A stretch of DNA of 64,000 nt from Opitutales bacterium (GTDB taxonomy: Bacteria; Verrucomicrobiota; Verrucomicrobiia; Opitutales; JABSRG01), in the NCBI GenBank assembly GCA_028280845.1, contig JANQKZ010000007.1, positions 1-64,000 on the forward strand, written 5' to 3'. Below the pieces are notes generated by a model. It was given only the letters and a program-made list of their open reading frames with translations. It was not told the DNA's origin and ran no database searches. A program made the position numbers and the translations under genes. Within the stretch, counting starts at the first letter, position 1. Each line of letters starts with the position of its first letter. Shown in pieces: positions 23,498 through 52,746 of the stretch.

Positions 23498-23578
23498 GAG
23501 ACCCGACCCGCTTTGGGGTAGACCCGAAATGGGTGACCTGCCGAGGCGTAGGGAGGGGCTCCCCCGATCGAAGCCTGG

Positions 23579-23651
23579 AGCCACCTGTCGGATTCGAACC
23601 GACGACCTATTCATTACGAGTGAATCGCTCTACCAACTGAGCTAAGGTGGC
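23579..23651 (-). tRNA. tRNA-Thr (CGT)
   Basis: A full cloverleaf on the minus strand: acceptor GCCACCT/AGGTGGC, D-arm GCTCAGTTGGTAGAGC, anticodon loop CTCGTAA with CGT at its centre, and T-arm with TTCGAAT. Discriminator base is T and no CCA is encoded. Its 3' end faces the direct repeat and the AT-rich segment. Confidence 0.95.
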
Positions 23652-24254: not shown

Positions 24255-24330
<76 letters not shown>

Positions 24331-24342
24331 TCCTTCGCTGAA

Positions 24343-24438
24343 GCCTGCGAAACGCGAGGGATGCCCCTCGTAGCTTTCTGAAACGAAAGCGTAGTGGGGC
24401 CTCTGCTTCGGATGGCACGCCATACGAGTGCCGCGCCG
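24343..24438. repeat. 96-bp direct repeat, copy 1
   Basis: Begins GCCTGCGAAACGCGAGGGAT and ends GCCGCGCCG. It matches 24555-24650 over the same length with only a few substitutions. It contains internal hairpins (CGAGGGATGCCCCTCG and GCTTTCTGAAACGAAAGC) and starts 13 bp after the tRNA-Met CCA. Confidence 0.75.
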
Positions 24439-24554
24439 AAGCCGTGCCTGCGCGAGCGAAGGCGGGCTCCTTTGTCTTGACCTGCCTCCATGTAAGCTGT
24501 GCTTGTGTCGACAGTGAGGATATGGGCTAAGCCCATAATCAAGTCTACCTTTCC

Positions 24555-24650
24555 GCCTGCGAAACGCGAGGGATGCCCCTCGTAGCTTTCTGAAACGAAA
24601 GCGCAGTGGGGCTTCTGCTACGGATGGCACGCCATACGGGTGCTGCGCCG
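24555..24650. repeat. 96-bp direct repeat, copy 2
   Basis: Second copy of the hairpin-bearing repeat at 24343-24438, same orientation, about 210 bp downstream. The spacer between copies (24439-24554) has no credible gene. Confidence 0.75.
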
Positions 24651-52112: not shown

Positions 52113-52188
52113 GCGGGCGTAGCTCAGTGGATAGAGCAGGGGTTTTCTAAACCCTTGGTCGGGGGTTCAAATCCCTCCGCCCGTGCCA
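52113..52188 (+). tRNA. tRNA-Arg (TCT), with encoded CCA
   Basis: Cloverleaf: acceptor GCGGGCG/CGCCCGT (first pair G-U), D-arm GCTCAGTGGATAGAGC, anticodon loop TTTCTAA with TCT, T-arm with TTCAAAT, then GCCA. Immediately followed by a hairpin repeat that starts within its CCA. Confidence 0.93.
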
Positions 52189-52253
52189 GTCTCGCTCGAG
52201 TGAAAGGAGAGCGAAGACTGTCGCGTCGTAGGTTTGAAAAAACGAAGACGGAC
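52187..52253. repeat. Hairpin repeat copy A, after tRNA-Arg
   Basis: Begins CAGTCTCGCTCGAGTGAA, continues through GAGAGCGAAGACTG (nearly perfect inverted arms) and TCGTAGGTTTGAAAAAACG. Matches copy B near 52679-52746 with few differences. Its first bases are the last two of the tRNA CCA. Confidence 0.7.
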
Positions 52254-52389
52254 CCGGTTCGACCAGTCGAGCTACGACCCGGCACAGCCAGTTCTTAGTA
52301 GCATAGCGCATAGGACAATCGTAGGTTTGAAGGAAAAACGAAGACGAACCCCTGGTTCTAACCATTCGAGTTTCGACTCGGCACAGCCA
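52226..52389. repeat. Two related units ending GGCACAGCCA
   Basis: Unit 1 (52226-52290) and unit 2 (52319-52389) both start TCGTAGGTTTGAA, contain AAAACGAAGACG and a GGTTC...CGAG segment, and end GGCACAGCCA. Unit 2 holds a CGAGT-TTCG-ACTCG hairpin with a UUCG loop. The endings look like a tRNA T-arm plus CCA, suggesting tRNA-derived degenerate copies. They lie between tRNA-Arg and the GIY-YIG gene. Confidence 0.55.
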
Positions 52390-52408
52390 ACAGTCTCTAA
52401 TTGCATAA

Positions 52409-52657
52409 ATGGAGAAGGAACATGTTGTCTACATCCTGGAATCCCTGGAACAACCAGGTCACTATTACACCGGTTACACCCAGGATCTTCCTACACAATT
52501 AAGGCATCACAATGAGGGGAAGATGCAAAACACTTCCCGCTATAAGCCGTGGAGAGTGAAATCTTACCACGTATTTTTTAACAAAAAGAAAGCCTTAGAC
52601 TTTGAAAAATATCTGAAGACCTCCTCGGGGAGAGCATTCGCCAAAAAGCGATTATAG
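52409..52657 (+). CDS. Single-domain GIY-YIG endonuclease
   Basis: An 82-residue GIY-YIG domain of the short UvrC-N/YhbQ-like type. Motifs: HVVYILESLEQ and YYTGYTQDLPTQLRHHN (GIY-YIG strands and the catalytic-type Arg region), then SRYKPWRVKSYHVFF and FEKYLKTSSGRAFAKKRL, the usual closing helix of standalone members. Such proteins are candidate homing-type or repair endonucleases. It lies between a tRNA-Arg with two repeat units and a second repeat copy, an arrangement that suggests a mobile element. Confidence 0.85.
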   Translation: MEKEHVVYILESLEQPGHYYTGYTQDLPTQLRHHNEGKMQNTSRYKPWRVKSYHVFFNKKKALDFEKYLKTSSGRAFAKKRL

Positions 52658-52678
52658 CAAATTAGGAATGATCTCGGA

Positions 52679-52746
52679 CAGTCTTCGCTCGAGTGAAAGG
52701 AGAGCAAAGACTGTCGCGTCGTAGGTTTGGAAAAACGAAGACGGAC
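52679..52746. repeat. Hairpin repeat copy B, after GIY-YIG gene
   Basis: CAGTCTTCGCTCGAGTG...GAGAGCAAAGACTG then TCGTAGGTTTGGAAAAACG. Same orientation as copy A at 52187, so the two form direct repeats enclosing the GIY-YIG gene. End coordinates are approximate by a base or two. Confidence 0.7.

Follow-up and report, generated by a model that had tools for sequence, protein, structure and literature searches.

Background

One of the closest known systems to the arrangement studied here is found in phages. SegB, a free-standing GIY-YIG homing endonuclease of the T-even phages, is encoded by a gene that is enriched beside tRNA genes, within 1 kb of them, and its nuclease activity is required for the tandem amplification of a tRNA segment, according to the portion of the report available (PMC13096335). 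Our locus resembles this system in that a GIY-YIG gene adjoins tRNAs, and SegB provides a precedent for a tandem-amplification step. However, SegB is a phage gene for which the same portion of that report describes no start exactly at the CCA, no hairpin leader, no tmRNA sites and no gene-less copies, whereas the genes considered here are chromosomal and encode Slx1-like proteins of about 80 aa.

A second comparison is with the REP/RAYT systems (REPtrons), which likewise consist of palindromic repeats that also occur in pairs, with most copies gene-less and a few carrying a gene (PMC3733652). The RAYTs are tyrosine transposases and the REPs are spread over intergenic regions (PMC3733652), whereas the element described here starts at the CCA of tRNAs and carries a GIY-YIG nuclease. 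No tyrosine (Y1) transposase is present at our locus, where the GIY-YIG ORF stands alone. The CGTC-tagged REPs, for which no transposase is known (PMC3733652), are by their description a partial analogue.

Stand-alone GIY-YIG proteins of small size occur widely, and their usual annotation is as UvrC-like or repair proteins. In the available parts of a GIY-YIG survey (PMC1564403) and a Caulobacter repair survey (PMC1839093), the Slx1-like/UPF0213/COG2827 proteins are treated as Slx1- or UvrC-like, and as repair-related or ancestral housekeeping functions. Our nuclease is of this same family, with a minimal GIY-YIG domain and an Slx1-like fold; a location at tRNA ends goes unmentioned in those parts of the two surveys. 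Integrative elements that use tRNA 3' ends also target the 3' end of tRNA or tmRNA genes and leave the tRNA functional, but the element here has no integrase, is shorter than 1 kb and is built of tandem hairpin units. With free-standing homing endonuclease genes it shares the GIY-YIG domain and the occurrence of the same locus in empty and occupied form in relatives; unlike typical homing endonucleases, the nuclease has no DNA-binding domain beyond its catalytic 80 aa. No paper in the literature searched, from which most subscription papers and all bioRxiv preprints were missing, was found to describe GIY-YIG genes located at the ends of bacterial tRNAs.

The reading that we prefer, to which we give a probability of roughly 0.6, is that the locus is one copy of a small selfish mobile element specific for tRNA tails, whose nuclease would cut these tails and which repair would then copy in.

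Results and discussion

The tRNA-Arg locus

The window, i.e. the whole stretch of 64,000 nt that was analysed, contains a tRNA-Arg(TCT) gene at 52113..52188 on the plus strand (ARAGORN; Rfam tRNA, 69 bits), which is the host site. The proximal copy of leader hairpin P1 (CAGTCTCGCTC...GAGCGAAGACTG; 52187..52220, plus strand), assigned from its fold and the P1 statistics of the family, begins within the tRNA: the first bases of its 5' arm, CAGTCTCGCTC (52187-52197), lie inside the CCA of tRNA-Arg, exactly as a sequence-only reading had proposed for the start of hairpin copy A, and the arm pairs with GAGCGAAGACTG (52209-52220). This arm has one T fewer than the family consensus; correspondingly, CAGTCTTCGCTCGAGTG has a single exact occurrence, the tRNA-proximal copy being short of one T. 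Hairpin P2, with its paired CGTAG...CGAAG motif, was assigned from the fold at 52221..52253 (plus strand).

The first leader unit ends in GTCGAGCTACGACCCGGCACAGCCA (52262..52290, plus strand), which comprises the conserved CTACG and the GGC-N-GCCA motif and recurs almost unchanged in a Planctomycetota locus (L034) whose leader as a whole is closely similar to that of the window. The second unit, which is decayed and was delimited by the direct repeats D2-D4, lies at 52318..52389 (plus strand) and ends in TCGGCACAGCCA. The two units had been read as having ends like a tRNA tail. The shared end does exist, with GGCACAGCCA at 52281-52290 and 52380-52389, but its identification as a tRNA tail was rejected, since it matches a variant of the conserved mini-hairpin motif GGC-N-GCCA of the element itself.

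The ORF for an 82-aa Slx1-like GIY-YIG nuclease carrying the replacement R30Q occupies 52409..52657 (plus strand), and the distal copy of the leader hairpins P1 and P2, copy B, follows at 52677..52746 (plus strand; repeat match and fold). Over 62 nt, copy B (52685-52746) is 97% identical to copy A (52192-52253), 493 nt apart and, as first noted, in the same orientation. The fold of copy B is more stable than that of shuffled sequences, with z of -4.2 as RNA and -4.0 as DNA.

An exact search of the 4.79-Mb genome and 52 relatives for the repeat version of the window returned essentially this locus alone, while related tails are found at many other tRNAs. Since the repeat families are subfamily-specific, motif and structure searches were needed. 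No integrase-sized ORF is present between tRNA-Arg and folD. Rfam recognised only the tRNA in the window stretch and only tRNA or tmRNA in 20 related loci, with no family for the tails and no match to a group I intron or another catalogued RNA.

The nuclease

The 82-residue product, the completeness of which had been recognised from the sequence, matches the Pfam GIY-YIG family with an E value of 6.5e-14. The Y, Y, R, H and E columns are near-invariant across 98 loci, and the spacing of Tyr8, Tyr20, Arg30, His34 and Glu66 is one that we take to fit the GIY-YIG active site. Arg30 is present at 97 of the 98 loci; the sole exception is the window protein, which has Gln. With the catalytic Arg replaced and the proximal P1 arm short of one base, the window copy is probably inactive, that is, to judge from its sequence, nuclease-dead and decaying. 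For the pairs of copies for which dN/dS could be computed, the values range from 0.02 to 0.22, and by this measure the nuclease is under purifying selection.

The structure of the nuclease was predicted with high confidence (pLDDT of 94.5). A profile search of the PDB gave 1zg2 (2.4e-11) and SLX1 (2.1e-8), and Foldseek with the predicted fold again returned SLX1 and 1zg2 as the best matches; the nearest solved structures are SLX1 and the uncharacterised UPF0213 protein BH0048. The modelled fold is thus Slx1-like. No separate sequence-specific DNA-binding domain is present, the protein being the 80-aa catalytic domain alone.

The window protein is 59-61% identical to Planctomycetota homologues; its identity to homologues of its own order reaches 51% over most of the length and 56% for one fragment. 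The protein tree by phylum is too poorly resolved for dated transfers, and it is from position and patchiness that we infer horizontal transfer.

Genomic position of the homologues

The 80 best homologues of a collection-wide search, in named organisms from many phyla, were examined for their surroundings. They include Alphaproteobacteria, Acidobacteriota, Planctomycetota, Desulfobacteria, Desulfuromonadia and Bacteroidota as well as Ignavibacteriota, Marinimicrobia, Lentisphaerota, Kiritimatiellota, Omnitrophota, Elusimicrobiota, Cloacimonadota and CPR lineages. In 68 of them (67 by distance scan, plus L061), the nuclease gene follows a tRNA or tmRNA gene of the same orientation at a distance of 35-323 nt; by our own estimate, the chance of such a placement is about 0.2% for a random same-strand gene. 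Homologues lying away from tRNAs would have spoken against a tRNA-targeting element; the great majority proved to sit just 3' of a tRNA or tmRNA. Among the remaining 12, seven are less than 500 nt from a contig start. Three (L085, L088 and L102) start with a 3' fragment of a tRNA or tmRNA, as expected if an island parts the tail from its tRNA. In one (L104), a decayed copy separates the nuclease gene from tRNA-His, and only one of the 80 (L090) lacks an explanation for the missing upstream tRNA or tmRNA. By comparison, none of 12 UvrC-type GIY-YIG genes of relatives has a tRNA nearby.

The close homologues in relatives of the same order are also mostly 3' of a co-oriented tRNA or tmRNA. Within the phylum, the family is present in 107 of 289 genomes (E <= 1e-12). 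The host genes are of 17 kinds; the most frequent is tmRNA, with 27 of 107. The host genome has two further GIY-YIG copies of the family, one at a contig end and the other directly 3' of tRNA-Lys with a second copy in tandem, so that other GIY-YIG genes beside tRNAs, which the sequence-only reading had suggested looking for, do occur in the same genome. Taken over all loci, the same package is found in no fewer than a dozen bacterial phyla, 3' of tRNA genes of many isotypes and of tmRNA genes.

Other stand-alone GIY-YIG proteins of small size, which fall outside this clade (L264/L013, L268 and L280), are likewise encoded directly 3' of tRNA-Asp, tRNA-Asn and tRNA-Ser. At L268, about 35 nt from the 3' end of tRNA-Asn are repeated 3' of the gene. 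A preference for tRNA tails may therefore not be confined to this GIY-YIG family. Two homologues in viral contigs (L113 and L114) are preceded by tRNA or tmRNA 3' fragments, as could result from prophage integration that separated an element tail from its tRNA.

The conserved leader

The order of the unit is constant: the CCA of a tRNA or tmRNA, the hairpins P1 and P2, an Slx1-like GIY-YIG gene of about 80 codons and, sometimes, more leader copies. The leader begins exactly at the CCA, with the consensus CCA-NCCTTCGC, and the start logo CCA|N-C-C-T-T-C-G-C is seen in most loci. The 5' arm of P1 is formed by these start bases together with the CA of the tRNA end. In 81 of 102 loci the two P1 arms pair at no fewer than 10 of 12 positions, a level reached by 1.2% of shuffles. 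Mean pairing is 10.5 with the arm of the own locus and 8.8 with the equivalent stretch from other loci; own-locus pairing thus exceeds cross-locus pairing, so that the arms covary. P2 follows directly after P1 with its paired CGTAG...CGAAG motifs, and the P1 loop often contains an inverted counterpart, TTCG...CTACG, with the GGC-N-GCCA mini-hairpin.

In one genus, the P1 loop is an intrinsic-terminator sequence (GCCGTCAGA...TCTGACGGCTTTTTTT). An intrinsic-terminator hairpin with a T-run was observed within P1 at three loci (L213, L181 and L182), where it apparently stands in for the terminator lost with the tRNA trailer.

The direct repeats flanking the gene, which had been considered part of the design of the element, are present in the window but turn out to be tandem leader units, and a leader copy is found 3' of the gene in just 21 of 98 loci; among the control comparisons, 4 of 291 gave one. 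The tRNA-Ala site of Bradyrhizobium carries two distinct leader/nuclease subfamilies, CCAGCCTTCGC and CCACGCTTCGC (L038 and L103 versus L071, L084, L091 and L109), which suggests repeated replacement at a single site.

Gene-less copies

A pattern composed of T-loop, acceptor strand, CCA and NNCTTCG was found in 78 of 195 genomes of the phylum, with 12 sites in the host genome, and its reversed form gave almost no matches. A 19-nt motif of the element has 20 copies in the host genome, of which 18 lie 11-540 nt 3' of a tRNA gene in the same orientation, 12 different tRNA genes being involved. The tRNA-Met of the window accounts for two of the 18: directly after this tRNA (24255-24330), a related tail that lacks the gene is present twice in tandem at 24331..24634 (plus strand). 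An element-like tail, GGCTTCG...CTACGCCTCGGCAGG, was recognised by eye directly 3' of tRNA-Thr (23576-23651, minus strand) at 23526..23575 (minus strand). All three tRNAs of the window (Arg, Met and, by eye, Thr) thus have element-like tails. Repeats that occur without the gene had been named as a possible objection to a mobile element. Such copies are indeed common, but they too are at tRNA ends, as expected of non-autonomous copies.

Empty sites, jumps and tandem copies

Empty and filled sites were compared in two genera of Verrucomicrobiota. The tRNA-Leu(GAG) locus of the first was compared in 20 genomes with matches: the gene is present in eight (L146-L151, L155 and L158) and frameshifted in one (L153), three have only the hairpins (L152, L154 and L157), one has a short remnant (L156), and the site is empty in five (L159-L163), the few remaining genomes being left unclassified. 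At the tRNA-Ala(GGC) of the second genus, two genomes (G142 and G345) are empty and have a trailer of about 85 nt with a terminator after the CCA; in a third (G118) the trailer is replaced by the element, and the native sequence is back just past the gene. At filled sites the tRNA is kept and the native trailer and its terminator are gone, a loss that could also be due to later divergence.

Copies on different tRNAs were found within single genomes. One genome (G238) has near-identical elements at tRNA-Ser(TGA) and tRNA-Ser(GGA), extending from the CCA to beyond the stop codon, while the tRNA bodies differ; the identity is only tRNA-like until GCCA and is then high to a few dozen nt beyond the conserved domain. 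Other such pairs are on Ala and Gly tRNAs (85% aa identity) and on Leu and Met tRNAs (72% aa). Whole units stand in tandem at tmRNA, tRNA-Ala, tRNA-Ser and tRNA-Lys, and some tandem units, at tRNA-Tyr and tRNA-Ser of the host genome, contain some 15-20 nt from the 3' end of the tRNA. A search for a general target-site duplication revealed one in a few loci only: a clear downstream copy of the host tRNA 3' end was seen at about 4-5 of 98 loci.

We consider the mobility and the site specificity of the element well supported. The sequence-only reading had ended with the proposal of a mobile element directed at tRNA 3' ends, and this proposal gains strong support from the position in many phyla, the empty and filled sites, the jumps from tRNA to tRNA and the tandem copies.

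Proposed mechanism and alternatives

In the mechanism that we propose, the nuclease would recognise the DNA at a tRNA 3' end, through the T-arm, acceptor and CCA, the hairpin structure, or both, and would cut or nick it there. Recombination-based repair would then copy the element in, with the tRNA end serving as the left homology; the right side would be joined loosely, so that the native trailer would be lost. As this process rebuilds a complete tRNA, the host gene would survive, transcription from the tRNA promoter could extend into the ORF, and the site would stay open to another cut, from which the tandem arrays are proposed to arise. Several points count against this preferred reading: the protein lacks the additional DNA-binding domain of typical homing endonucleases, an insertion that leaves the whole tRNA intact leaves the self-protection of the element unexplained, clear downstream copies of the tRNA 3' end are scarce, the trailer may have been lost by later divergence, and the protein tree has poor resolution.

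The strongest competitor is a transposon-like process, in which the nuclease acts on the hairpins of its own element in single-stranded or cruciform form, excising or copying it in the manner of REP/RAYT or IS200/IS605, and the tRNA tail is merely a preferred landing site. The leader hairpins are conserved and covarying and form an inverted pair (TTCG...CTACG and CGTAG...CGAAG), gene-less hairpin copies are plentiful, and branched DNA is, according to PDB titles, a substrate of Slx1-type enzymes. We nevertheless regard this process as unlikely, though a serious contender: GIY-YIG enzymes hydrolyse DNA and, to our knowledge, are not known to rejoin strands, the right end of the element lacks a clear definition, and near-all copies are at tRNA ends, so that the target counts as much as the hairpins.

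The purifying selection, the same-strand position and the intrinsic terminator in the P1 loop of some leaders would also be expected if nuclease and hairpins served the host in the processing or quality control of tRNA and tmRNA 3' ends. Such a function is very improbable in view of the patchy distribution (107 of 289 genomes in the phylum), the variation in the tRNA used from genome to genome, the empty sites within the same genus, the decayed and gene-less copies, the tandem arrays, and a window copy that lacks the catalytic arginine.

Least credible of all is that the loci are debris of integrase-type islands or prophages with tRNA 3' ends as attachment sites and the nuclease as cargo, for, although some loci have a tRNA or tmRNA 3' fragment in place of the whole tRNA and three homologues are in viral contigs, the unit is only about 0.3-0.8 kb, has no integrase and keeps the same start and order in many phyla, 50,697 phage records gave no match and 72,556 plasmid records a single weak one, and the fragment cases look like islands separating an existing tail from its tRNA.

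Significance

Beyond the preferred reading of this locus, we put forward, tentatively and at a little less than even odds, that tRNA-anchored hairpins and an Slx1-like GIY-YIG nuclease together make up a new class of bacterial mobile element, one that would spread itself, colonise tRNA and tmRNA tails in many phyla, replace their trailers and leave gene-less families behind, so that a supposed repair family would be largely selfish. If true, the systematic link to tRNA and tmRNA tails would move much of the GIY-YIG family to the mobile elements, and the strategy of targeting tRNA ends would be new and integrase-free. The element supplies a nuclease that can be assayed directly for specific action on tRNA-tail or hairpin DNA. 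It also accounts for a common class of hairpin repeats 3' of tRNA genes, which implies that many tRNA trailers and terminators may be of selfish origin.
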